A DNA stretch of 64,000 nt from assembly GCF_022376445.1 (NCBI RefSeq), contig NW_025955042.1:62001-126000 (forward strand), written 5' to 3'. The position numbers and the translations under genes are program-made. Source of the stretch: Fomitopsis serialis (lineage: Eukaryota; Basidiomycota; Agaricomycetes; Polyporales; Fomitopsidaceae). This document shows, in pieces, positions 1,402 through 27,859 of this stretch. Position 1 is the first letter of the stretch. Each line of letters starts with the position of its first letter. A model generated the notes under the pieces. That model was not told where the DNA came from, made no database searches, and was given only the letters and a program-made list of their open reading frames with translations.

Positions 1402-3215
1402 CTATGACTTTGTTGCATTCGCTGCAAAATCAGCAAACTCAGTACGAAGGTAAGGCACACGTATCGTCAGTGAATGGTACGTACCACCGTGTCGTGCAAG
1501 CTGCAACTTCCTCACTTCTGCCAAAATGTCATCGCAAGATTCCGCTTCACCTTCATTCCCTGAGATGAGGGTGCACTGCACTGAACATCGCTCGATGTCA
1601 AGCTGAGGAAGGAGCGAATCCAAGATGCAGGCAATTTTGCTCGCGCCGTTAGGGTCCTCGAATATGAAAGGTGATTGGACGTGGAACTCTTGAAGCGCCG
1701 CAGGCTTCCCGGCCCCCGAATGAGTAGCCAGTACTACGTCTGGCAGGGGGAGACCACCGAGAAAGCTCTGGGTTAATGAGTGCACCGACAGACTGCGGAG
1801 CTCAGCGCAAGCACGCGTGACAAAATGGAGGTCTTCAAGAGAGAACGTTTGCCCTGGCAAGGTAAGCGTCCGCAATCTGGGCCACACCGTGCCTAAGGCG
1901 AGGACATTCACATTGAGGTGCATGTAGACGTTCCCCTCCGTGTCGAATTGGCACATATGGACATCCTCGAGATGGCGATCGAGCAGTGGACTTGCCGGAC
2001 CGATAAGGGAAGACCCCTCGGCCGTAAATGGGCTGAGAATGCGTTGGGCTTCTAAGTCGCAGAGGGTGACGTGGAGTCTTCGTAGGGAGGTCATATTCCG
2101 GCGACGCAAAATGGCGAAGGTTGCGCTGAGAGCATCCACTTCTGCCCTACCGTCGCCTGGGTCCGGACTACAGGTTAGTTCGATGTCCTCCAGCTCGGGT
2201 GCAACGATGGCGTTGACGAGGTTCGCCACGCCCGTCGCCCATCCATCGATTCGTAAGCGTCTCAGCTTCACCAATGAGCGAATAGACGACGTATCCCAGT
2301 CATTGATCAGCTGAGGATCGTGCAGAGTTTCCCCATCAACGAGAGTCACGCTGAGCTCCGTCAGCTCCTCGATTGTAGAAACGATAGGAAGGGCGGCTCG
2401 CACGAACTTGAGCGGATACCAAAAGGCCTCGTGTCCCAAGGACCGTAGCTCGAGCTCTTCCAGCTCGGGGAGATCGCGCAGGACGGCGGGCAGCAATTAC
2501 TTGAAGGCGTGCCGCCGCATGCGATACCCGTACTCCTGCACCTCGTGACCGTTCTCATCTCCTGAGACGTCTTCACGGAGGCGAAGAATGCGGATAGACG
2601 GAGAAATAACAGAGACTAGCTCGGGTGTAGCATGGTCCCAGATAAGCTCGCGCAGACAGGGAAAGAGCGGCTTGCCACGCGCATACTGCTGAAGGAAAAG
2701 GAAGACCGAAGGATCGATCGTCACCTCGGTCGAGTAGTGAAGGACATGAACAAATGGCGCGTAGTGCTCGAACCGAGCCCACTCCTCGTCAGAGACTGGC
2801 TCTGGTAGATAGCGCTTTGCACGTCGGTTAGTGGGGCAGAATACGCTGCTAAATAACTCACATAGGTATACAGATAGTCAGACGGGTCCATGTCCTCGTT
2901 TTCTTCATCGTCCGACTCCATTCCTTCAAAGATGCTGTTCCTGCTTGCAGGCCACTTGACAGTGCCAACACTGAGGTTCAATAAGACAGCACCGCAAAAA
3001 TCAAGTAGCTGTTGTTCCCTCCACAGAACCCTGATCGCTGGTTCGTGGAACGCTCGGCACGCCTGTGCACATCTTGCAAGGGCCGTGCGCGCAACGCATG
3101 TTCCTTCGGTATCCACGCTAGTATCCTCGCTGGTATCCTCGCTGAGATACTGACGTCCAGATCCTGGAGACAGCAATTGGAACACTCCTTCGACTATGTT
3201 GAGAGGAAGCAACAT
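1402..3215 (-). pseudogene. F-box/LRR gene with an in-frame stop
   Basis: ATG at 3215 starts MLLPLNIVEGVFQLLSP, a divergent F-box, followed by ALARCAQACRAF and IRVLWREQ as in the paralogues. Exon 1 is 3215-2862. An intron (GTGAGT to AAAG, 2861-2815) has the same position and phase 0 as in the copy at 35318. Exon 2 resumes RYLPEPVSDEEWARFEHY and continues through leucine-rich blocks to 1402. At 2497-2499 a TAA interrupts HAFK*LLPAVL. The neighbour at 873 has CAA there (HAFKQLLPTIL), so this is a C-to-T nonsense change. The rest of the frame (about 360 codons) is open, so the break is either recent or a sequencing error. If expressed, only the F-box and first repeats would be made. Confidence 0.65.
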
Positions 3216-3888
3216 GGATGGAGGCGCAAGTGTCGTGCTAACGAAGGGCAAGACTGTGTTGATGTTAAAGTCAGGTAACGTTGAGCGTTCAGGTTCGGGG
3301 TGATACGATGGTGGATTCTGACAAGAAAAAGTAGCAGAGCAAGAGCAAAGTAGCGCGTAGCCCAGTGAGCGCGCTGAAGACGCTGGCACCCAGTGGGCAA
3401 GAAACCCGAAACAAACCTATCAGAAGCGCACACTCAGACAAACGGATTGTAGGCATCGCAAAGTGCAAGTTTGAAGCAAGTACTGTGAAGCAAGACGAAG
3501 CCGTAACGTGTTGCCGTTGCCAGTCCGACGAGGAGTCAATTTGTCTGCGAAAATCAATTCAAGCGAGTTTGAACGAACATCATCTGATCGGTCGATGAAC
3601 TGGTATAAATCGTAGCAACTTGCTCTCCGAGTTTCTACACGTCTATTGCATGGTGCAATAATCATTCATTCACTCATCAGTGTCTTAATGCCGTCGTCGC
3701 GAGCCTATGGCAAGGTCCCGGCGATGTAGCATTGCGCAGCCCAATGACTAGGCTGGTAACGCTGCGCTGTTTGATGTTCGTCTGTCGACAGCCTGAGGCA
3801 ACAACACGGTGACAATGTAGTACTGCTACTAACAGCAGTGTTTACTGATACATCCTCCAATGTCTGAGTAGCAACGCAACGTAATATC
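3216..3888. other. Intergenic
   Basis: Separates the F-box gene from the aldo-keto reductase relic. No gene is supported. Confidence 0.45.
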
Positions 3889-6504
<2,616 letters not shown>

Positions 6505-6577
6505 CCTTCCTACAAGGTGTCGTGAACGCAGGCCTCGGAAATTGGAGATTCGATTCGGAAGACCATTCGCGAGACCC

Positions 6578-6584
6578 ATATATA
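6578..6584 (-). promoter_or_regulatory. TATA box of the downstream reductase relic
   Basis: ATATATA lies about 74 bp before the ATG at 6504, the usual fungal spacing. The rest of 6505-7169 holds nothing else I can support. Confidence 0.4.
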
Positions 6585-7169
6585 CGCGGTGCTGGAGACC
6601 CATTGACGTGCATATACGGTCGGCATAGATAGATCGCTTACGCAGGCAGACGGCTGGCCGCTATACAGAGCCATCCACCGGGGGTCCGACGCTGACGCAG
6701 GCGCCACGAGATCGGGGTATAGTGTGGGTGCCCTTCGAAACCTCGAGTGAATAGTACTTCTGGCAGCAATTCAGCTCAGTTGGATGTGGCTCTTGTGCCT
6801 ACGTACCACAGCCATTTAGAGGAGCAAAGGATCCTGGAAGAGTCATCCAGTCCACTCAGATCGGATGACAAAATAAATAACCTGTGCACGGGTGGAAAAT
6901 CCGAGTCGATGACACAAGATCGAATGCGCACAAGGACTCGTCAGTCTGCGCTCATACCGATGGCCCCAAAGCTGATTTCTCAACAGTCTCCGCAAGCCTT
7001 GTCATAGCATTTGTACTGGTACAGGTTTCTGCAATTGCTACTAATAACCCCAATGAGCAAGCATGTGCGCTATGGTCGCTGCGTATACGTACTCACATCA
7101 TACGCGCACTTCTTGCATCCGGCTCCGCTCCACGACCATATGTTCGTCTCCCGCCTCGACTCAAGCTAC

Positions 7170-8992
7170 TCAGTGGAAGTAGCTGCTCGCATACGGCGCC
7201 ACGGACAGCCACGCCTCGTCCAATGCCTGCACCACCGCCTCCGCTACATCCAACACCCGAATGTATCAGCTATCACGATGCGTTCACGAAACAGATCAAC
7301 GGAGCTCACGCAATGGGCCCTTCTCCAGATCGATCATGTTCTACACGCCCAGCGCTCCCGAATCAGCCGCCATCGTACGGGATAGCACGAGACTAGGGGT
7401 CAGACGTACCTGTTCGATGTGGTTCAAGCTGGACGCGCCGATGATAACCGCGTCCCCATACTCGCGCTTCATCAGGCTGTGGTGCGAGATCCAGCGGAGC
7501 GCGATCTCAGCCATGGTCAAGTTGTGCGCCTCGGCGACCTTCTGGATGGAGCGAGCGCGTTGAAGTACGGCTCGTTCCAGTAGCTATGATCGCCAGCAGA
7601 TATTGCGATTTAGAGATTCGCTCGCAGGACTTGATAATGTGATTGCCTACCGAGCACGATAGTTCTACGCGGGGAAGACGGGGGTGAGCAGATGGTTGAC
7701 GAGAGATCGAGATGACGGCTTACCCTTCCTTGACCCTTGGTTGGGTCGAACCGGGAGCCAGGTTCAACATCTTGGTCGGGCGAACTGTACCTTCCTGTGA
7801 AGAAACCTCCGCCCACTGTGCCATTATTCCTTAACCCCAGCACCAAGCCAATGAGATGTCATCGACACTCACAGGGGTTGAACTCGTAGAAGCTGATGCC
7901 GTACTTTCGCAGGCACGGGAAGAGTTCAGGCTCGACCTTACTATCGAACACATAGCCGCGCGTCAGCGTGCATAACATTGACGAATATTCCTGCGCCCAC
8001 CGATGAACTGCGTTGTAGATTCCTTGGTACGCTGTGGGCTGGATGTAACCGTTCGTCCTGCAAATCTGCACGATCTCAGCCACCTCCCACCTATCCACCC
8101 CACTCTTAGTACGACACCAATGGCATACAGAGCGAGTAACGTACGACATGTAGTTACTGATTCCGAATCGCCGGAACTTGCCCTCTTTGTACAGGTCGTT
8201 GACGGCCTTGAGTGTGACTTCATATGGCGTCGTTCGGTCGGGGCCGTGAAGATACCACATCTCCAGCTGGCTATATGCGCAGAAAATTGAGTGAAAGGCA
8301 ATGTGCTTTCATTCCAATGACATACTCAATGTTGAGAGCTTTCATGGACGTCTCAAGGTGCTTGCGCAGGTCCTGTAAAAGGTGTTCTTTATCACGCACA
8401 TCCGACTTGGAAAGCACTGAGTCGCATGTACCTCAGGCGCATGCGAGATCATCGCTCTGTTCGGATTCTGCAGCCTCTTGTTCGCCTGTGTGATGCAAGC
8501 AGAGCATTTCATCAGTCCACGGTGGCAGATACAGAAGCAGAGCGTAGGTAAGCACGGACAACGTTCGGGTACAATTTTGTCTCAATTTTCAGGCCGCGAC
8601 TGCGCCAGTCGATCTTGCCAAGGTACTCTTCGCTTGTCCCACCAGTGTAGGTGCGCGCCGTGTCAATCTGGAAATTACCGTGCTTTCAGCTGTGGACCCT
8701 GCCAATGGTCGCATATGATGGTGCCGCACCTCTGTATGGCCATGGGCCTGGAACACATCCAAGATCGCCTCGACGTCACTGAGGTTGTGGACCCGAGCAC
8801 CTGGTGAATAGATGAGAAGGATACCAAAACCGCTGCTGGACTGGATGGACGGATCCCCAGCAACGCACCTTCCTTGCTCTCTTCCCCAACGTCATGGCGC
8901 CCTAGCGACGATCAGGTCACCAGTCTGCAACATCCCGAGTACGATGGAATTACCATCACGATGTTCAGCGCGCTCTTCTGTTGAGGGGCCAT
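7170..8992 (-). CDS. AKR7-type aldo-keto reductase (aflatoxin aldehyde reductase family)
   Basis: About 12 short exons can be traced from ATG at 8992 (MAPQQKSALNIVM) to TGA at 7170-7172 (LDEAWLSVAPYASSYFH). Family landmarks are ARVHNLSDVEAILDVFQAHG, IDTARTYTGGTSEEYLGK (catalytic Asp and Tyr), KIETKLYP (Lys), MWYLHGPDRTTPYEVTLK (His), [72 protein letters not shown] and MAEIALRWISHHSL. The enzyme would be a cytosolic NADPH-dependent aldehyde reductase. Two places lack one base relative to the sister copy: near 8893 (in GAMT-GEES) and near 7559 (NAL-SIQKV). All conserved residues remain, so these may be base-call errors; otherwise the gene is inactive. A TATATATA box at 9109-9116 lies 117 bp upstream. 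Confidence 0.72.
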
Positions 8993-9435
8993 GTCAGTGT
9001 CCTGTGGTCGATCAAACTGCTATGCTGTGGTGTGGGTCGTCCGGTGCTGCTACCACCTCTGAGCCGTTGGTGGATGCTGTAGGTGAAGGGCTGGATTCAG
9101 ATGAGATGTATATATAGACGAACTCGGCGGCTGGCTTACTCACGGTCAGTACACTTTGCCTTCGTAAGTATACCACACCCGCTCGGTGCCTGGCTGCATG
9201 GGCAAACGGCGAGGAGACGGCATCCCGAAGTCTAGGACACGTGGTGCCGATAAGTGACGTTGTGTGGTACGAGATAACTGCTTGGATGGCGTGAACTGTG
9301 AACAGACTGACGGCTCCCACCGCGGATGCCGAACGGCACTCCAGATGAAGATTCCGCGCGATTATAACCAACATTAGTGCCAATGCATAAGTTATGTATA
9401 GGCATGAACCGCTGCATATGTCGGTGCGCAATCAT
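8993..9435. promoter_or_regulatory. Upstream region of the reductase
   Basis: Contains TATATATA at 9109-9116 read from the minus strand, 117 bp before the reductase ATG. No gene is supported in the remainder. Confidence 0.4.
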
Positions 9436-10240
9436 CCTCTCTCGTCCGAGAACACTGCCGCGCTCCGTACTGCCTTCCGCAAGGGCATGGAGGGACTCCT
9501 AGAGCTCGCACTCGAGCACGCGGGCTGACGACGGAGCGCATCCACGAGCTCTACGAGATGCGATTCTCGACGATAAACCCTGTCGTTGACATCAGCGACA
9601 AATGCATAGGTGAGCAGTGGTGGTCCACTCCCAATTTCTGGGAAGGTGGCGTCGACGATGCGGCTACGATCCGCGCCAATCCGCCCGAGACCTTCTTCCA
9701 TCTTACCATCTACGGCGAGCTCTTCGGGCCTGCCTTCGACGTGTTCCTCAAATTGGACACGATTCCCGAGGCGGCGAACGCAGAAACAAGGCTCGAACTC
9801 GTCAGTATTGCATCCCGGATTGGCTGCGCTGGGCGTATCAGAGCCCTGCCTGGGGCGAGGATGGCAGGGTGGATCCGCGCCGGGCTGTTCAGCCTGTTGG
9901 TCCTTATTCCCCTCTCGTAGACGACGACCCTTCACCCCCAGGGTTGGAAGTCGACGGCCAGCAGTGGCTCTAGCACCTTTTGAAAAGCACGAGATGGGCG
10001 CGCGGCTGTAGGCAGTGATTTCGGGGAGGGATGTAACCAAGATCTATGGTAGGCCATCGTGATGTGCCAGGACATGGAGGGCATGGAGGTGGTCAAGCCG
10101 GGAGATCTGGCGAAATGGATGGAGCGTTGATTGCCTGGAGATCAAGGATTGAAGCGATGACGACGAGGCCCGACAAAGTCACGATCGAGAGGGAGAAGAC
10201 TCATGTGTTCCCGGACCTCAACGGTGCACTGGTAGGGTGA
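9436..10240 (+). pseudogene. Truncated F-box-like gene relic
   Basis: Closely matches the intact gene at 61457-62557 from SSENTAALRTAFRKGMEGL through ELYEMRFSTINPVVDI, IGEQWWSTPNFWEGGVDD and PPETFFHLTIYGELFGPAF to the end (TRPDKVTIEREKTHVFPD). The N-terminal F-box-like part is absent. There is a one-base deletion at about 9526 (EHAG*), another frame change near 9800 and further breaks after 9970. It reads opposite to the intact copy. Probably a dead duplicate. Confidence 0.65.
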
Positions 10241-16218: not shown

Positions 16219-16300
16219 TAGCAACTCCTGGTTTCGATCCAGGGACTTCAGGGTATCCATAGGTATGAGCCCCGCACGCTCCCAACTGCGTCAAATTGCT
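16219..16300 (-). tRNA. Initiator tRNA-Met (CAU), with intron; hybrid gene
   Basis: Reads 5'-AGCAATT acceptor, D arm ACGC/GCGT with loop AGTTGGGA, anticodon stem CGGGG/CCCTG, loop CTCATA|A with a 9-nt intron (16255-16263) between nucleotides 37 and 38, variable AAGTC, T arm CCTGG-ATCGAAA-CCAGG, acceptor AGTTGCT and discriminator A. The A1-U72 pair and the AUCGAAA T-loop are marks of the eukaryotic initiator. Internal promoter boxes are TGACGCAGTTGG and GGATCGAAACC, and TTTT follows directly. The acceptor stem has one T-G wobble and the D-loop is unusual for an initiator. Both oddities lie in the half that appears to have come with the adjoining element (see 16267-22987). Confidence 0.9.
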
Positions 16301-16529
16301 CGGAATGAAGGTTGGTACATCGACCCCTGGCTGACTGTGGTGGCTACGAGCAGTCGCAGCTGGACCAAACTGACCCACTATATTCTGTCTTTCTGGGATG
16401 ACTTCACTGCATAGGACCGTCTTTCTGAGCCAACAGATGGATGTTTTCATTCATGTATGGTCAATTGGGATTACAGTTCATGGTTACAAGAATCGGAGAA
16501 AGTCCACAGCAGGCTCGTACACTACTAGT

Positions 16530-19500
16530 CTACGACGCTAGCTCCTTCTTACGCCTCACATCAATCGCCGCCTTGGATTTCTTCTTGATGTTGACATGGC
16601 GTTTGTCAACGAGTGTTACCGGGTGCTCCGCTAAAATCGCAGGGTCGTAGGTTGCTTCATGAGCGACATCCGCATCAAAACGGAACTGCGGTGGGAGCCT
16701 AAGTTCCTCGTTATCCGTGTCGTCCGCGTTGTGGCCGTCGTCGTCTGATTTGTCCGTGTTGTTGTCATCGTCATCTGCGTCTTGCGTCTCACTGATGGTG
16801 GACCCATTGCGCTTGAGTAGCGGATACTTGTGAACATTGTGGAGATGTTCAATCGTGGCACCGAGGTCGCGTCTGAGGGAAGATCAGCCGATGCAAGGGA
16901 GAGCCATGAGAAGACAAACGGACTCGATTTCACCATCACAAGGAGGGAATGCACACCGGAAGGTCCTGGAGTAAACCAACTGTGTCTGACCGGCACGAGT
17001 GGGGGCACCACTGAAGTGGGCGTAGATGTGTTGATGCATACGCTGCTTGTCCTTGAAGTACCTGTCAGGTGACGCAGTTAGATGTGCCGCTTGTGATGAA
17101 ACAGTCTCGACTTACACGAGGCGGTGTTCAGGCGGAGCTCTCTTTGACTCGCCGTGCTCCACCGGGTCATAGAGCCATGACAGACCTTTATTGTTGAGGC
17201 ACATTGGGCAGTAATACATGAGGTGCCCTCGAATTGCCACCGAGTGTCGTATGAAACTGCTCAGCGCCTCAAAACCGCTGCGAAACATGAGGGACAGAGA
17301 CACATCAAGAAAAGATGTACATACCGTGTTGGGGTGATAGAGACCGGCGGTTGCGATGAGACTGGTGAGGCACCTGCAGTTACGACTTGCTGCTGTGGTA
17401 AGGTCTGGCCCATTCGTCTTGCAAGATGTTGATCCTCAAGATCATTGATAAGGACGAGAGGGTTCTCGTCATCATCGTCGTCGTCATCGTGACGAAGCCC
17501 TATGGTGCTGTCCTGTGGATCAACATCAGGCTCGGAAGCCAACTGACGATCCTCCTCGCTAGGAGCGACGTGGCCATGGCTGACGAGCATAGCATGTACG
17601 CAAGCCTCCAGGTGGTCTTCCACGTTACAATCATCCCAAGGCCCATCAAGGAAGACACCGCACACGGGACAGCGAGTGAAGCCAGGATGGTGTTTGAGGT
17701 CACATCGGAGCATGTGCTGGGCGAGATTGGCTTGGTGATTCTTGTCGCGCTCTCGCGGAGGCAGGCTCGTGTCGTGGATGCACCACGGACATTTGCCCTC
17801 CACCCGAATGCTGTCAGCACGTATGAGGGAGATGTACTGGCTCAGCAGGGCAAAGCGTGGGTTGACTCGCTCAGCACGGATCAAGGGCACGAAGGGATGG
17901 TCGGCGTTCAGGGTCTCCAATATATTGATGGCATCTCCGGCGCCGAGCAAGGTAGGTGCGTCGGTTGGTGCGTCGGTTGGTGCGCCGGTTGGTGCGCCGG
18001 TTGGTGCGCCGGTTGGTGCGCCGGTTGGTGCATTGGCTGGTGTGTCTTCAGTAGCGGGATCCTCATCGCTACGATCTGGCTGACTGCCGTCCGCCGAGAC
18101 GTCAATAGGATCGCCACTTGTGGCCTCTGGAGGGCCACTGGGAGCGACCTTCTCCTTGCTGGCGGCGACCTTCCCTTTGCTGGTGGTGAGGTATGATGCA
18201 TGTTGGCGCTACCGGGACAGACGTATGGTCAGGAGATGACAGGTGCACGACACTCAAGGCGCTTACTCTCGTGGTGAGGGTAGAGGCATACTGGACTACA
18301 TCCACCCATTTGCTCAATGCATCGCGACATTGTGGAGTGTCTAGAGCCTGTTATGTGGGGGGTGAGGTGAAGAAGACAGCAAGTATGAGGAGACGTACAG
18401 CTTCTTCCAATTGATATGTGTACTTTCCACCATTTGCCTCAATCAGTGGTTCCTCTGCACGTCGCCACCGGTCGACAAGCTGTATATACTCGGTGTCGAC
18501 TACGGCGTTGAGGTCCGCGTCACTTGATGATGCCGTGGTGGAGGCATCTAGATTGAAGGCCACGGAAGAATGGTGGTCTATGAGCTTGAGATGCGCGTCA
18601 GAGTCGGCCTGATCGAAGCGCTTGGCTATCATGTCAACGTGGCGGTCCTCGGGCTGATAGGTGGAGCGTGCGAGATGGGATTTGATACGATGACCGAGGG
18701 CATAATTGAGGTTAACCTGCACAACGGCCATGACAGTAAGCCACACAAAATACGGAAGAGAGAGATTCCGCAGCACCTTGTCCATCTTTGATAGCATTTC
18801 CCTAGCGAAGGCATAGCGGAATCCACGCATAGAGAACCCTATGGGCGGCAATGCTCAGCGGACAGCGATGCAGGCAAGAGGAAGACTTACATTTCCATCG
18901 GAGAGGTCTTGCGACCTTGGTGACCCAATGAGCGGCTGCATTGTATGTTGCGGCGGTTTGACGGTCCTCGGTGACGAAGACGGGCTGCTCCGCCAACTCG
19001 GGCTTGAACTTGAGGAGGTGGGGGAGTGTTTCGGGGAGGTGCTTGGCATCCTGATACATGTTGAGGATGGTTGTGTCCTCGAAAACGCCACGGGCGAGGG
19101 CCTGCGCCATGAAGACGGTGACAAAGTCCATGTGAAGGTCATCACGGGATGTCACATGTAAGGCGATCCGGACTCTACGAAGAAGTGAGCGAGAGGTGCA
19201 TGCGAGAGCGCGAGACTTACTGTGCAGAGTCGTCCTGGCGCATGAACTTCATGTAGACAAAGCTGATAAACAAGGTGATCTCGAGGCCTTCACCTTCCTT
19301 CCACCCGGTGATCCACACCTCAATGTGCTGTGTGTAGGGCGCAGATGAGATGAGTGCTGCTATGCGGTGAGAGTGTCACACACACCTTGTAGAGCAGACA
19401 CTCGTTGGTGTTTTCATAGCCCCGGGATAGGACGATGCAGCCTGGACGCTGGCCGGTTGCGTAGAGAAGGGTGGCGAGGGCGATGGTATTGAGCCGCTGT

Positions 19501-20691
19501 GGGAGACATCAGGTGAGAGAGCTGTGTAGCAAGACGTGTCAGCGTACCAGCCAATTGGTGCGCAGTGGCGTTGGCGGCTTGAGAGCGGCTCCACAGAAGA
19601 GGGCCAAGTCTTCCCGACGAACGTAGCGCTTTTCACGCTTGCGTGTGGACAACAGCTTGTCGACGACGGCCCATTCCCGGATAGCCTGGGAGGACGGTCA
19701 ATGGGGTGCAATGAACACGAGAGCAGACTTGCATTTCCAATTTGGACGCGATCTGATTGCGATGGTATACCGGCTCCGATGGATTTGAGCTTCAAGAGAT
19801 TGTGAGTGCGTGCAAGGAGTCAAAGTCGACAGAAAGAGAGACATACATAAGCGCAGAGTACGCCGACGAATCTCATTGCTGTTACGAACGCCCAGCCCTT
19901 ACCCTCTTCGACGTAGGAGTGGCCCGTCTTAAAGATGGCGTGAAATCCTTGTATTGCTTGAGCGAGGGGAGGAAAGTTTGATCCTGGGCGTAGCATGTCT
20001 TCGGCGGCGTCTTCAGACTTGAGACGCCAAGCCCAGTAGCCAACCCAAAGGCGGCGTACACGATCGCGGGCAGCCTGGGTGGGCGGCTGAACGGGGCGAA
20101 TCCATATTTTGTCGAACGTGTCCGTCTGTGCGATCATCGCGTCGGGGGTTCCATACTCGGCCTCTAGGTCGGCGGCGAGATTGCGCTCTCGGCCTGCCTT
20201 GCGCACGCGTGCTTTGCGCTTGGGAGGGGCGGAAAGACCGGAGAGGAGGTTGGGGGCAGGAGGGAGAGATAGAGCAACGGAGGAAGACGCACGACTGCTG
20301 GCTGAAGTCGAGGGGAGAGCCACAGTCGAAGCGATGGACGCAGGGGTGCCATCAGAAGGGAGGGGGACGGGCCAGGACGCGATGATGGGATAGGGACAGC
20401 AGAGGATGGCACGGCCCTTGAGGGAGCAGCAGCAGACGAAGCGGATCGAGGGGCAGACGCGGGCAGGGGCGCATCTTTGGAAGGGCGAGCAGGAGGAAAA
20501 CGTTTGCTGGGGCGCGGACTGGGAGCGGGAGTAGGGCCTGAAGCGGAGGCTCCCGATGCGGCGCGTCTGAGAGCTGTTTCGGCGGGCGTGGTGGGCGCGA
20601 CAAGAGTGGGCGCGGCAGGTTTGGCCAGGGACGGGGCGGCAAGGGACGCCTTTGGGGCGGCTGGCTTGAGGCTGCGCTTTTTCTGCGGCAT
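16530..20691 (-). CDS. DUF3435/FluG-type tyrosine recombinase with C-terminal zinc fingers
   Basis: About 13 exons and roughly 1,150-1,200 residues. The N-terminus is Pro/Ala/Ser-rich and basic (MPQKKRSLKPAAPKAS), followed by a core-binding region (DTFDKIWIRPV, RRLWVGYWAWRLK). The catalytic domain shows the usual set: Arg in LLYATGQRPGCIVLS, Arg in MRGFRYAFAREM, His in NYALGHRIKS and Tyr in LARSTYQPEDRH. An APTG repeat linker precedes Cys/His fingers (CPWCIHDTSL...HMLRC, CPVCGVFLDG...HLEAC, YCPMCLNNKG) and an acidic/basic tail. DUF3435 proteins are the tyrosine recombinases that mobilise Starship elements in ascomycetes and are related to Crypton enzymes. Introns are mostly GT-AG; intron 2 (donor at 19732) uses GC. 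One frame change near 20360, in a C run, and one uncertain junction near 16900 are probably base-call errors. Confidence 0.85.
17955..18032 (-). repeat. 12-bp coding minisatellite, about 6 units
   Basis: GGTGCGCCGGTT-type units in register with the reading frame encode an APTG/APTD linker between the recombinase core and the zinc fingers. Confidence 0.9.
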
Positions 20692-21027
20692 TGCGAGAGG
20701 GAGGGCTTATGAGAAACGACGATGCGGACGTGCTTTATGTGCGCGTAGCAGCAACGCGCAGGCCGCGTCAAGAAGGGAAAAAAAAAAGTTGGGCACACAT
20801 GGGGGAGAGCCGAATGCAGCAGCGCGAGGACTGCATTTGGCGTTCGCAGCGCGCACGCAAAGTAACGAAGCACGGTGCATGTCAGGCAGAGAGCACCCAG
20901 CAGCACAGTGGCTGTCAATGACGTCAGCAAATGACGGATCTGGACACTCGGAAGAAGCCGCGGCTGAAGGCAGGGACGTGGACGCGACGATAGCATTGCT
21001 GCGAGTCAACAGAAGCGGGCGAAAGTA

Positions 21028-22532
21028 CTACGGGACATGCGGGGCGAATTCCTCGAGGAAGTGTTTGACGTGCGTGCCGACGAGGTCACCTGCGAGGACG
21101 GTGGTGATGTTGATGAGAGCGCTGCTGGCGTGCGAAGGGGAAGGAAGGGACGAAGGATCTGCGTTGTCGAGATGATGTGCGATGGCATCGAGGACGGGAA
21201 TGAAGGCACGGGAACGACCGCGGACGAGGCTGGTTGCAGCCCAGATAGGGTCGAGAAGGACGGCTGGGCCAAACTAAGGGGGGTGGTGAGACGGAGGGGG
21301 GGCGGATGGGGCAAGGAAGACGGACCGTATTGTACATTTTGAGCAGACGATTGCGGGAGGAGATGGTGAGGCGGGCGGAGTTGCGCCAGGTCTTGAATTG
21401 GGGGGAGAGGAGGGCGAATCTGGCGTTTGCCGCGTTCTCGGTGAGGCCGAGGAACTCGTGGGAGAAGGCGGGGTCTTGCATGAAGGAAGTGCGGAAGAAG
21501 GTGGTGGTCCACTTTTTGCCGCGGGGGAGCTGCTGGCGGGCCTGCCAGTCGGTGGCGAATTTGATGGTGTCGATCTGGAGCAAGATGCGATGGACGGCAG
21601 TGTGAGCGGTGTGGGCGGACTGGGTTGTGACGAGAGCCTGGAGGGCATGAGGGCGAGGGACGGTAAGTAAGGAGGAAAGGTACTGACAGTGTGGCGGAGT
21701 TGAAGGCGTTGCGAGATGCTTGCGACGGTGTCGTGATTGGCGGAGTGGGCGACGATGTCAGCCATGGTGACGATGGTGTCGGCGGAAGCATCAAAGACGT
21801 CGGCCTGGATGCAAAATGTGAGGCGGGTGGAGGCGCATACAGTCGGCTTACCCAGTCATTGAGTGACGCGCGTGGGAGGCCCGAGAGGAGGCGGATGAAT
21901 GCGGCGTCCTCGAGGTCTGCGAGCTTGTGCTTTGGGTGATCGCCAATGAGGAGGAGTGCGACATCCGATGGGGAGGGAGGGCTAGCGCCGAGAGTGCTGA
22001 GGATGCGGGTGATGCGGAGAGCTATGGCAGCGTCTCTTGGGTCGCGGGGCTCGTCGTCGCGGGGTTCGTCGTCGTGGGGTTCGTCGTCGCGGGGCTCGTC
22101 GTCACGGGGTTCGTCGTCGTCGATGGGCTCGTCGTCGATGGGCTCGTCGCGGGGCTCGTCGTCAATGGGCTCGTCGTCAATGTGTGGCTCGTCATCGACG
22201 TGTGGCTCGTCGTCACCCGGCTCTTTGTCACTGCGCAGCTCTTCGTCACTGTGTGGATCGTTGTCGCTGCGTGGTTCATGCCAGTCGTCGTATTCCGGTA
22301 CGTCACCGTAGTGGTCATAGTTTCGGAGGCAGGCGTAGACATCGTTGGCAGGGTGTTCGTCGTCAGCTTGGGGAATGGACCTCGATACAAGGCGGTGCAG
22401 GATCTGGAAGCGTTCACAGACTGTGAACGCTAGGTAGCGAGAGTTGGGGGAGGTGAGGGGGAGGGACATGTGTTGGCAGAGGGGTTCGATGGCGTCGAGA
22501 TGGCCGAGGATGGCGTTGAGGTGGCTGGCCAT
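21028..22532 (-). CDS. Unknown acidic-repeat protein, partner gene in the element
   Basis: Four exons, all phase 0 (22532-21852, 21804-21688, 21637-21326, 21273-21028), giving 451 residues with no frame break. It begins MASHLNAILGHLDAIEPLCQ. Residues about 95-170 form an acidic low-complexity run built on DDEPRDDEPH-like units. The remainder is alpha-helical in character (LSGLPRASLNDW, IVTMADIVAHSANHD, RGKKWTTTFFRTSFMQDPAF, FLEEFAPHVP at the end). I do not recognise the family. It lies immediately upstream of the recombinase on the same strand and within the att repeats, so it is cargo or an accessory factor. A regulatory or DNA-bridging role is speculation. Confidence 0.75.
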
Positions 22533-22954
22533 GGTGGTTGCGGTGAGAGAGGAGAGGGGCGGTGTGGCGTGGCGTGGCGAGTCGCGGGTGGCGGGTGGCG
22601 GGCGACAAGGCGTCGGTGGCAGGCTATGACGATGCGACGAGAGGGCGGGCACGTACGCGCGCGGCGCATCGCGGCTGCTGGCGGGCGGGGCGCGGGGATG
22701 ACGAGAAGGCGGACGCGGCGCGCGTGTCAGGGAGGGCGACGGGAGAGGTGCGCGACGTGTGGTGGCTGACGAGAACGGGGATGCGGTTGCGCGTCGGGCC
22801 TGGTGGTGGACGGGGTGCGGACGACGTGGCGAGGAGGAACGGGTGCGGCGGCACGAAGGAACGGGTGCGGCGGCACGAAGGGAAGACGGGGCTGTGGCGC
22901 GGATGACAGGAGGCGGGGGGACGTGACGGGGGGCAAGATATGGTTGTGGAGACA

Positions 22955-22987
22955 GAGCCCCGCACGCTTCCGCTGCGTCAAGTTGCT
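22955..22987 (-). other. Detached 5' half of initiator tRNA gene (att site)
   Basis: Read on the minus strand it gives AGCAACT, TG, ACGC-AGCGGAA-GCGT, G, CGGGG, CTC and then unrelated sequence. It is about 88% identical to the first half of the tRNA at 16267-16300 and closer than that copy to the eukaryotic initiator consensus. It lacks the T arm and 3' acceptor, so it cannot be a tRNA. Confidence 0.88.
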
Positions 22988-23884
22988 ATAGTTGAATGAC
23001 TCGAGAGGATCATGAAGATGCGAAAGATTTGGGTGAAAAGTTGGAACAGGCGCTCTGCGTGCCTTGCAGACGATATCGGACCATCGTAGCGCTTAGATTG
23101 CTTCGGCATGCTCGAATTTGCGCCTGAGACCTTGCTGAAGTATAGCTCAACGGCTTGGGGCCAGATAATAATATTTTTCAAGTGCCTAGAACGTTGGAGG
23201 CATTTTATACTTTCTGCCTCGCGGAGGTTTGATCGAATACTACACTCTCAGCCGCTGCCACTTCTCAGGCTCTACAGCGGCGAATCCTTTCGATGAAGAC
23301 GTGCAGACTCACACCTAGAGCCCATCTCATATTTTATTGATTATTGCGCATGCCCCTAAGTACTCTGCCACGGCTGTACTTCATATTAACCCACGACCCG
23401 GGGTCCAAGTGCAACTTCAGATTCTACACCTTCGAAGTTGCCGTTCAACCACAATTGTCGATTGGCTCGCCCACTAAGACTTCAACACTTGGTTCATCCA
23501 CGCCTTGTGCACGCCTCCGCGGTTTATGCTGACCGCCAGTCAAAAGCAATGTCCAGCCGGGTTGCTTTCTGTGCATGGTCCTTTTGCGCCACCTGCTGGA
23601 TGAAGCTGTCAATATTGCTCAGTCTCGATCACGATCGACGATTTTGACTGCTGTCACTCCGCTGTCAAAATCGGGCTCTCCCGCTCGTCGGATGTACCCG
23701 AAATTGCTGTTGGACATCCGCCACTCTGGAGGACCAACAAGTAAGTATGATGGGCGTCGGCCGACGAAATCGACAAACAGCTGAATGCAGTACGGCTACA
23801 CAGTGTGTTAGAATTGATCAATTCCTCGCCGACGCTCAGCGTACAGTCTGCAAACATGCTACCCTTACTCGCAGGCCCCCGAGG
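22988..23884. other. Original upstream flank of the tRNA gene
   Basis: No gene supported on either strand. By the insertion model this was the natural 5' flank of the initiator tRNA. Confidence 0.4.
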
Positions 23885-24740
23885 CTACCAGTGACCGGGG
23901 CCACACACTTCCTTTCCACCGTGTGCACCTTTTATGCCCAATTCAACACGTACATCGCTCCGCGTCTGCGCATGCCAGCCGCGAAGCTTGGTGATGGTCA
24001 GTAAAAAGCTCCTGTGGTATAGAACTGAAAATCGGACACGCACGTTGCGAGTGCGCGATGGGTGCCTTCCGACCGCTTGGCGAGACGAGCAGTCGGCAAT
24101 GACGTCTGTGCCCAGCCTGAAAGTTGCGGTTGAAGATTGTGCAGCACAGCGCGGTACCTGGCATTCCACGAACCAGATGCGACAGAGCCCAGTCAACCGC
24201 GTGGCAAGGACATCACAATATCATTCTAGAGGGTCATGGTGAAGTGTCACCTAAGCCGGCCTGTCAGAATGGCGGAGGCTCTCAACACAAGACAAACATA
24301 GCCTACGGCTTTTTGAAGCAGCCTAATCTGCAAGTCTGCCTTCCGAACCTCCTGTCATACTCCCAACGACCGCTGGGGGCGTCCTCTCATGCGCTATGCA
24401 GTCAGGCTGCTTCGAGAAATCCCATATAACGTGATATGGCGGGGTAATGCGGATGTTGAATGTATTTCTCCGCTGCTCCAGCAACATCTCCTCGGCGGCA
24501 ATGGGTATATCCGCCATTAGGTGCACGCCCGGGCCATGGTTGACAACAAATATCTGGACTGCGCTGAAGACGTCGGTGGACTCTCTAGCGACGTCTGCAT
24601 CCTTCTTGAGATTCGGCGACGAGGATGCGGAGGAGCCATATGCATCGAGGAGCGGTTGTGAAGCCGACGAGCTCCCGTTATAGTGGGCAGAATGACGTTC
24701 GCTCCAGCCTCTGCGGCTCAGAGAGATAAGATGTTCCATT
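23885..24740 (-). pseudogene. Decayed short-chain dehydrogenase
   Basis: Pieces in several frames resemble the gene at 25221-26334: AHYNGSSSASQPLLDAYG, SAVQIFVVNHGPGVHLMADI, then DFSKQ and IAHERTPPAVV. Near 24240-24180 there is a ruined counterpart of the MSLKNEIVKIAPRGRVN segment with in-frame stops. Breaks are numerous and no full frame can be made. Confidence 0.5.
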
Positions 24741-25220
24741 GACGAAGAAGAATATTACGTACTTAAGAAAGAGTTCGGTCGTGAATGCCAATTTGTCCAT
24801 TTGATCCTACCAGTGAAGCGTCGTGAGCGAAGGCCTAACCTGTGATCAATGAGTGGACGGCCGTCGATCTCCACAATCATCATTTCCTTTGGCGTGTAAG
24901 TAGTACTATACTTGGGCAGATCACTTAGACGGGAAGAATCTGTAAACGAATGGGACTACCTTTGTCATAACAGAAGAGCTGCATCGATATACTGCATGGG
25001 ACGGACCATATTGATCAACGGTCATATGGACGAATCATTGAGGAGGTTCAAACTTATCGTAGCTTCGTGAATGCTGCCATTGATCGCACGGACAGGGCTG
25101 AGTGCGTGCGTTCGGTAGTAATAAATACACGGTCGAGTCGTGAGCTCCGATACAAGTTGTAAAACGCGGTTGCTTTCAACTTCTGCTCCCGTGATTGATC
25201 ACCGCAGTGTGTCTTGCAGC
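24741..25220. other. Intergenic
   Basis: Between two dehydrogenase copies. No other gene seen. Confidence 0.4.
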
Positions 25221-26334
25221 TCAGCGCCTCGTTATATCCTCGGGTTGGTTCAGCAGTCTACCCTCCATACCGCCATCTACCATGATGACTTGGCCAGAGA
25301 CGTGCCCGGACACAGCGGTCGAAGCTACGAAGACGACTTGGGATGCTATGTCCTCCAGAGTAGCAACTCTCTTCAGTGGAATGCTGGTGTAAATCTCTCA
25401 GCGATGCACGCATGATGACAGGTAAGTAGACGGCTTACGTCGCCAGTGCACGATGGAAGGCCTCAGATCGTTGGGGGCTATGTTCGGCCGCTGGCGTTAA
25501 GACTCAACCTGCAGTACTTCAGGATTCGACTTCAATGAAGCGAAACGACAATCCTTTATTCACCCGGAGCGATGAAATTGACCCGCCCACGCGGGGCGAT
25601 CTTGACAATCTCGTTCTTGAGCGACATCGTGGAGCCGTACATCATAGCTAGAAAGACATTTTGAGCGTTTGCAATTGCCAACAGAACCAACGAGCAATAC
25701 ACACCGCTTTTGGTCGCGGAGTAGTCGGCATGGCCGATCTCGCCATACTTTCCTACGGTACTACCTAAGATGACAATGAATGCCTTGTCCTTCTGCTCGT
25801 CCGTTGCATAGGCCAGTTGTTTCAGGTACTCCCTGACGACCAGGAAGACGGACGTTATGTTGGACGCAAAGGTCGATTCCCACTGCGTGAGCGACATCTC
25901 GGCGATGGGCACTTCAGGCTTCGGGTGCCATCCATGGTTTGCGATCAGCACCTGGACTGGACCAAACGGGTCATCTTTGAGTGTGTGGAATATGCGCAGG
26001 ACATCGTCCTCCCTGCTGAGGTTCGCTTGGGCGGTCTGAATGCGGGTATGACCGAACTCGCGGTGGAGAGGTTCGAGGGTCACCACCGTGTTGTTGTAGT
26101 GAGCAGTCACATTCGCTCCGCATTCTTTGAGCCAGATAGGAAAGATGAGGAGCGTTTCGCCCGCTGCGTATACTGGGACTGACTGAGGAAGAGGCGGGCG
26201 GTCACTAGGCCTATGCTTCCGCTAGCACCTATAGTGATGGGTTTTAGTTCTTCCTGGTCGCAAGATAATATATGGACGAGACGGGAATGCTGACCTGTTA
26301 GGAGGACATGGACGCCGATGAGTTGCAAGTCCAT
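25221..26334 (-). CDS. Short-chain dehydrogenase/reductase
   Basis: ATG at 26334 gives MDLQLIGVHVLLTG, joined across an intron to ASGSIGLVTARLFL, the Rossmann cofactor loop (TGxSGxIG). It continues ECGANVTAHYNN, VQVLIANHGW (NAG-type motif), ILGSTVGKYGE, then the catalytic YSATKSG (Tyr-x3-Lys) and VKIAPRGRVNFIAPG. After an intron the last exon ends IPLKRVATLEDIASQVV, VSGHVSGQVIMVDGGMEGRLLN and TGA at 25221-25223. It would be an NAD(P)H-dependent oxidoreductase of unknown substrate. In the exon following APG, a TGA near 25504 replaces the tryptophan expected in the usual PGW motif, so the gene may be inactive. A decayed tandem relative lies downstream. Confidence 0.7.
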
Positions 26335-26657
26335 TGCGTTGCCGATAGATCTGGATCTGAATGGGCGCCTGTCATAAGCTGCACCTTCGGTGTCGCAGTG
26401 GAGATGAAACTCAAACTGGCTGCGCACGCACTGACTCTGTCGTCGTCGTCGTTTGTCGCTTTCTCGTCGCTCCTCGTTGGTCGTGATCACACAGATACTG
26501 TTCGAGGATAAAGAGACTCATCTGATCTAGGCACGCTTCTTTTTGACTTGAACAGACCTGCGGCGGTGACTCAGAACGGACCTGCGGCGGGCCGCATACG
26601 GCTCTAGAGCATTGGATCCTTTTAGCAGCTCAGGGATAGCCTTCTAGCAAACTTGTA
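26335..26657. other. Divergent intergenic region
   Basis: Separates the minus-strand dehydrogenase from a plus-strand gene and could hold both promoters. No motif is convincing. Confidence 0.4.
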
Positions 26658-27859
26658 ATGAATTCGAAGGTGCAGGCAAGACCGTTGGAAGATGACATTG
26701 GAACTACGCGGTTCACCGTCCAAAGGTACGCGATCTATAGGCAACGCTTGCAGTCTATTCATACGTGCCACAGCTCGGATGTCCTGGCGGACATGCGAGT
26801 GAACATCACCGAGGAGGGGTCGGAGAGAGTGATCTGGTACAAGGCAAGTATCTCCATCATCTGTACACAAAGCAGACATCAACTCAGCAGGCTGTGTGAA
26901 GGAAAGATTCCTCGCAGACGATGAAATAGTGGAACACTTCGTTGTATGTGAACAAATACGGGTACCCGTGCATTCCTAACTTTACAGTAGGAGAATGGAA
27001 CGTCGACTCTTCTGTGGACTATTCATCGTCCCAAACGAGGCTGGTACATCCGGCTGCGAACGCCGTCTTTCCCTCCGGACGTGTTCATTCCGCTCCTACC
27101 CCTTCCGCAGACCTCTCCATACTACCTGGACTCTGCGCTGACATTTGCATGTCGAAACCCTCCGCCCTTCTCTCTCACCATATCGTCCGTCCTAAACTTT
27201 GAGCAGTCCCAGGAAACTGCTGAGAAAGACGCGGACAAGACCCAGGATATAACCACCCACGAGTATCCTCCGACCCCTCCGCCACTTGCGCCGAGCGTAG
27301 TGGTCCACCCCCCTCACCGCGTGCCAGTGTGCCAAAACTCGGTGGGTACGACTTCAAACCTCCGCCGGGCCGTACCGCCACTTCGTCCCCTCCTGCGAAA
27401 TCGCCCATCACGCATTTCGTGCTCTCGCCTCAATCGCGGGTCACACCTCAGCAGGCGGAGAGGAGCTCGTTGTTCACGCGGATGTTCTCTGCGCTGAAGA
27501 CCAATGCTCCTGCGCACTCGTACACCTTCGCTCTGTCGCCCATCCCAGACCCGTGGGCGCCATCGACACCATCCGCGCAAGGGCAGTATCGCGATGCAGC
27601 GCCGTCAACGCCCATCCCCTTGCTCACCTTTTTCGACCAGACACCGGTTTGGACGGTTAACTCGGTGTCAGGCGTGATTGAAATCGACATGAAACTCGTC
27701 CGGTCGCTCGGAGTGGAGACGAGCTTCTACATAGCTGTCGCGTTGACCTACCTCGACTTCGTGTCAGACAGGGAGGTAAGCTGTCCCCGCTGATGATCCT
27801 GTCGATGCGTGATTGACACGTTGCCCTTGCAGAGTTACCTCGCCGCGTTAAATGACTGA
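26658..27859 (+). CDS. Conserved-looking protein of unknown function
   Basis: Start at 26658 (MNSKVQARPLEDDIGTTRF). The reading continues through DVLADMRVNITEEGSERVIW, CVKERFLADDEIVEHFVV, ENGTSTLLWTIHRPKRGWYI, LRTPSFPPDVFIPLLPLPQ and SPYYLDSALTFACRNPP. A Pro/Ser-rich linker leads to a C-terminal part FTRMFSALKTNAPAHSYTF, FFDQTPVWTVNSVSGVIEID and SFYIAVALTYLDFVSDRE. The last intron (from 27775) joins to SYLAALND and TGA at 27857-27859. A frame change in CACCCCCCTC (about 27310) would be cured by one more C. The first intron joint is uncertain. It looks cytoplasmic, without a signal peptide or membrane helix. I do not recognise the family. Confidence 0.55.

Follow-up and report, generated by a model that had tools for sequence, protein, structure and literature searches.

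We analysed a window of 64,000 nucleotides from Fomitopsis serialis, a wood-rotting polypore of the Fomitopsidaceae (contig NW_025955042.1, positions 62,001 to 126,000), in which a tyrosine recombinase gene and a second gene, designated gene A, lie between a complete initiator tRNA-Met gene and a detached copy of the first half of such a gene. The window sits in contig C788 of the genome that was searched (66.2 Mb in 806 contigs, C-numbered here), and all match counts from the genome searches are lower bounds. The complete tRNA gene (16219-16300, minus strand, anticodon CAT), called by ARAGORN and recovered in the genome search, has a 9-nt intron after tRNA position 37 (about 16255-16263). The coordinates and the initiator identity agree with a preliminary description made from the sequence alone, in which the intron went unmentioned. 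On the same strand, the segment at 22955-22987 matches tRNA nucleotides 1-33, with the match ending before the anticodon; sequence comparison thus agrees with that description on the isolated half, as it does on the presence of two genes between the halves. The two copies of nucleotides 1-33 bracket gene A and the recombinase gene exactly, over about 6.7 kb or 1.0e-4 of the genome, and both 5' halves end in the same 13 nt, GCGTGCGGGGCTC. Part of a tRNA is therefore repeated directly at both ends, one of which completes a gene, as is expected of att sites.

Through the use of the detached half as a genome query, we obtained at least four matches, namely the half itself and complete initiator genes on C58, C479 and C390; the window's own complete gene was absent among the matches listed. 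Judged from these matches, the half is not a widespread or dispersed repeat; the preliminary description had named the opposite outcome as one that would refute its reading. The three other complete genes, whose introns measure 9, 27 and 27 nt, have identical 5' halves, and given their presence, the earlier suggestion of an essential tRNA being targeted without being killed is unneeded. We also observed a CACGTG palindrome in the introns of these three genes, whose downstream flanks are homologous to one another. Relative to them, changes affect 1 of 33 columns in the detached half, 3 of 34 in the 5' half of the window's complete gene (16267-16300, minus strand) and 1 of 35 in its second half, which reads CCCTG where the other three read CCCCG. 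The differences among these counts are not significant (Fisher p = 0.61 and 0.36), and the base changes in the D-loop and acceptor stem, previously put forward as decisive, are too few to serve as such. Because the counts do not differ significantly, the choice of the original first half rests on position and not on base changes. A20 in the D-loop is a feature of eukaryotic initiator tRNAs; the complete gene has lost it, which could make a rebuilt tRNA a poor initiator.

The recombinase gene, which contains introns, was delimited by sequence comparison at about 16530-20691 on the minus strand; past the conserved domain the gene was interpreted by eye, with Cys/His motifs seen at the C-terminus. 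Two homologues were found, and the window protein shares 44% identity with that of Rhodofomes roseus and 48% with that of Daedalea quercina. R206, R364, H386 and Y397 (query numbering), the Arg, Arg, His and Tyr motifs already recognized in the preliminary description, are invariant in all three sequences, and we take them to be the catalytic set. Against Pfam PF11917 (DUF3435), the corrected window domain scored 21.3 bits (E 1.5e-4), under the curated cut-off of 25.8, and the R. roseus homologue scored 46.9 bits, over it. Itself just short of the cut-off, the window recombinase appears to be tied to the DUF3435 group by way of its R. roseus counterpart. AlphaFold models were too poor to be of use for either the R. 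roseus recombinase (pLDDT 38.8) or the R. roseus homologue of gene A (41.9).

Searches of the genome with two different recombinase queries revealed no further copy, both matching this gene alone; two extra matches of one query (E 0.645) fell outside the conserved domain and were disregarded. The DUF3435 profile gave zero matches across the whole genome, the window's own gene included, and because that gene was missed as well, the silence of the profile says nothing about absence. Viral contigs, queried with the recombinase alignment, likewise yielded no relative.

Gene A (21028-22532, minus strand) encodes a protein of 451 aa with no assigned function, identical over 451 aa to the annotated B0H18DRAFT_1029452 of F. 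serialis. Its R. roseus homologue is EVJ58_g8282 and that of the recombinase is g8284, both listed with longest contig 21,327. With both genes also present in R. roseus, where they apparently share a contig, the pair appears from sequence to form a conserved cassette.

Collectively, these observations favour a reading in which an element consisting of gene A and the recombinase gene inserted itself at the anticodon of an initiator tRNA gene, likely carrying a substitute first half, and we assign this reading a rough probability of 0.55. It is favoured because it explains both the exact bracketing and the presence of this gene pair between the halves. The recombinase would exchange strands within GCGTGCGGGGCTC, which extends from the 3' strand of the D-stem to the anticodon loop. 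The circular form of the element would carry the substitute half as its attP, corresponding to 16267-16300 in the integrated state, and the host's own first half would remain at the far end, at 22955-22987. A eukaryotic tRNA gene has an internal Pol III promoter, unlike prokaryotic tRNA att targets; the substitute half would bring an A box together with a new upstream region, and the rebuilt gene may still be transcribed.

A related locus on C579, represented in part on C341, bears closely on this proposal. C579:72523-76507 is collinear with window positions 27271-22538 and then jumps to the tRNA second half at 16254-16218, so that the homologous stretch begins near 27271, extends 1-2 nt beyond the tRNA 3' end and goes no further. 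Kept at both C579 and C341 are the left flank, the leader (the sequence between the detached half and gene A) and the tRNA second half, which carries CCCTG at C579 and TCCTG at C341; neither has gene A, the recombinase gene or the complete gene's first half. Locus comparison further shows that C579 is without a 71-nt piece comprising the detached half and the 38 nt upstream of it (22988-23025, minus strand). Ungapped identity between the window and C579 is 0.72-0.93 per block over 23796-23119, 0.90 at 23118-22926 and 0.88-0.98 in the leader, so the shift in identity is not placed precisely at the detached half. Over 4.9 kb, C341 and C579 are 97% alike, for which reason C341 is taken as an alternative haplotype, in an assembly that is probably partly dikaryotic.

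We rejected C579/C341 as an empty site, given that the first half is missing and the leader and second half are kept; an independent insertion there is unsupported, since the left flank is common to the window. The leader ends in GCAA; in the window the start region of gene A comes next, at C579 the tRNA. Because the leader of a gene A paralogue on C24 carries GCAACCACCATGG just as the window does, C579 seems formerly to have run on into gene A, suggesting that it is a deletion derivative. The shared left flank (23026-27271) holds a short-chain-dehydrogenase-like gene, recognized by eye, and is homologous to C579:72523-75575 and partly to C341; a protein-kinase-like gene, likewise recognized by eye, lies to the right of 27271. 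Beside the main dehydrogenase-like sequence at 25541-26221, the window has a diverged second fragment of this kind at 24151-24754, and the C341 region (8949-9929) has several kb of extra left-flank DNA (about 3028 to 8949) relative to C579.

A number of observations weigh against integration as we have proposed it, the main difficulty being the right flank of C579/C341, which is unrelated to that of the window; integration would need a further rearrangement where the tRNA ends 3', and the C579 flank is better explained by a tandem copy of the tRNA gene, as considered below. Neither an empty site (a single tRNA gene with the window's flanks) nor a second intact copy of the element was found in the assembly. 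The argument for a substitute half has 3 changes against 1 to draw on (p = 0.61). In the low-complexity N-terminus of the recombinase gene, the frame of the start codon and that of the conserved domain could not be joined, a break that may reflect damage or a sequence error. Gene A homologues occur at six other places (C379, C51, C24, two on C46, and C39) against zero further recombinases in the genome searches, and the R. roseus and Daedalea queries detected no recombinase in the stretches fetched from C24, C51 and C379. The C51 and C379 copies, 93% alike over 5.9 kb, may be alleles.

Five of these six fetched stretches (19.9 kb of C51, 9.9 kb of C379, and 2.9 kb each for the two C46 places and C39) showed no tRNA, which also counts against integration. 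These calls were made by ARAGORN with introns allowed, used in place of Rfam. On the window, Rfam did not list the complete tRNA even at E <= 2, and among the listed loci it gave only the C479 gene; because it missed the window's tRNA, its silence near other loci is no evidence. A T-arm pattern scan was uninformative, missing even known tRNA genes. At the sixth place, C24:382835-385095, the gene A paralogue begins 425 bp downstream of a complete, intron-bearing tRNA-Pro(CGG) gene. Assuming 150-250 tRNA genes in the genome, roughly 0.2-0.4% of gene starts would be expected to have a tRNA no more than 0.5 kb away. A truncated tRNA-Pro copy lies 205 bp upstream of the complete one. We rejected it as a clean half, since by eye it still includes the anticodon arm and is broken at the T arm, and it may be a decayed tandem copy. 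The tRNA at one of the six other places is suggestive, not conclusive, of an association that is perhaps not unique to the window.

The origin of the GC-rich leader (22533-22954, minus strand) also counts against the proposal, for from its first bases on it is homologous to a stretch inside a dispersed repeat, here called R, which measures at least about 2.3 kb. Six R copies were examined (C88, C668, C579:15.1-15.4 kb, C793, C657 and C301), and the sequence left of the leader-start point is closely similar in each; between R and the C579 locus, nothing significant was seen left of this point over 60 nt (p = 0.55). The tRNA half ends in CTC, and R reads CTCTGTC at this place in four of the six copies, leaving 2-3 nt in common, an overlap compatible with end joining. 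In addition, the C579 leader (near 76232) contains a fragment matching a gene on C217 and C4, by eye a sugar kinase. The leader can thus be regarded as a mosaic whose start would be either an element end or an end-joining junction. Its initial TGTC was rejected as the end of a long terminal repeat (LTR) or a Helitron, being internal in all six R copies and lacking a fitting right end. The integration first proposed in the preliminary description is partly supported: it keeps the bracketing, the single detected recombinase and the R. roseus pair on its side, with the missing empty site, the C579/C341 right flank and the R-derived leader standing against it.

Among other histories, we considered one in which the two tRNA copies arose in tandem, a piece of R cut the upstream copy at the anticodon, the window subsequently lost that copy's second half, and the two genes merely happen to lie between. 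The start of the leader within R, at a point where CTC precedes TGTC in most copies, agrees with this account, as does the arrangement at C579/C341, where a second half comes immediately after the leader and has another right flank, which is what would be predicted if this half came from the upstream copy. The CCCTG variant common to C579 and the complete gene, and the truncated tRNA-Pro copy on C24, point the same way. We nevertheless think this history unlikely. Under it, the exact placement of the sole detected recombinase of this type between the copies would be a coincidence, and a deletion is still needed in one locus, given that the last ~130 nt of the leader enter gene A in the window and the tRNA at C579. 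Moreover, the sequences upstream of the two tRNA copies do not resemble each other significantly (p = 0.32 for 40 nt and 0.75 for 150 nt), which speaks for integration because a recent tandem duplication would be expected to leave some similarity, although an old one could have lost it.

Break repair between initiator tRNA loci, joining the sequence on the window's left to another second half and right flank with no involvement of the recombinase, would account for the halt of window-C579 homology just beyond the tRNA 3' end, and it is in keeping with the finding that the downstream sequence common to the three other initiator genes has no significant match in either right flank. We regard it as improbable, more so than a broken tandem, since it leaves the detached first half unexplained, likewise the precise position of the two genes between the halves. 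Derivation of the detached half from a retrotransposon, for example as a half-tRNA primer copied beside LTR-like sequence, is very improbable: the leader does start with TG and one R copy has in its vicinity a fragment that looks by eye like a Gypsy-type reverse transcriptase, but TG is internal in six of six R copies with closely similar sequence before it, leaving no LTR end, and the sequence upstream of the half has no more than a weak resemblance to that upstream of the C58 gene (p = 0.08 over 40 nt).

Returning to integration at the anticodon, the candidate element can be set beside several known systems. Like the Starships of Pezizomycotina with their DUF3435 captains, it has a DUF3435-related recombinase and direct repeats, and some captain families prefer 5S rDNA (PMC12134995). 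It differs in residing in a basidiomycete, in having only two genes without large cargo, and in its target, a tRNA gene that was apparently rebuilt. Starship captains lead at the 5' end, whereas the window recombinase adjoins the complete tRNA and points outward to it; in place of a 5'-leading captain, cargo and empty-site boundaries, we found two genes over about 6.7 kb, an outward-facing recombinase and no empty site in the assembly. Cryptons are eukaryotic tyrosine recombinase elements with short direct repeats and no inverted repeats, and the candidate element resembles them in host domain, enzyme and direct repeats; its repeat, however, is 33 nt of a tRNA, and tRNA goes unmentioned in the Crypton text that was searched (PMC3212892). 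With the Crypton comparison made by description, we file the element neither as a Starship nor as a Crypton.

Other eukaryotic DNA elements share single traits with it. The enzyme and mechanism of Dada transposons differ from those of tyrosine recombinase elements. Dada nevertheless resembles the candidate as a eukaryotic DNA element inserting in tRNA genes, being reported as a group of fish transposons that target tRNA and snRNA genes (PMC8869645). Cryptophyte Polinton-like viruses, also eukaryotic, integrate via a tyrosine recombinase, but their authors report that no tRNA gene was found closer than 1 kb to the insertions (PMC12220804). We found no report of Starship, DUF3435 or other fungal tyrosine recombinases at tRNA sites in a literature search whose coverage did not extend to key Starship papers.

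A closer precedent for a 5'-half att site comes from archaeal pTN3-like integrases, whose att site is the 5' half of a tRNA gene that is restored on integration with a new upstream region (PMC8371274); by analogy, the arrangement in the window would work like theirs. Those elements, like the bacterial ones that integrate into tRNA genes, are prokaryotic and use other recombinases, and the window tRNA has an intron. We tentatively propose, as a possibility we rate somewhat below even odds, that a DUF3435-type recombinase of brown-rot polypores uses an initiator tRNA gene as its att site, with a spare 5' half rebuilding the gene, and that this is the first such system in eukaryotes and independent of the prokaryotic ones. 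If so, DUF3435 elements outside the ascomycetes would gain a defined, testable target site, and eukaryotes too would have arrived at the prokaryotic strategy of inserting into a gene that is needed and making it whole again.

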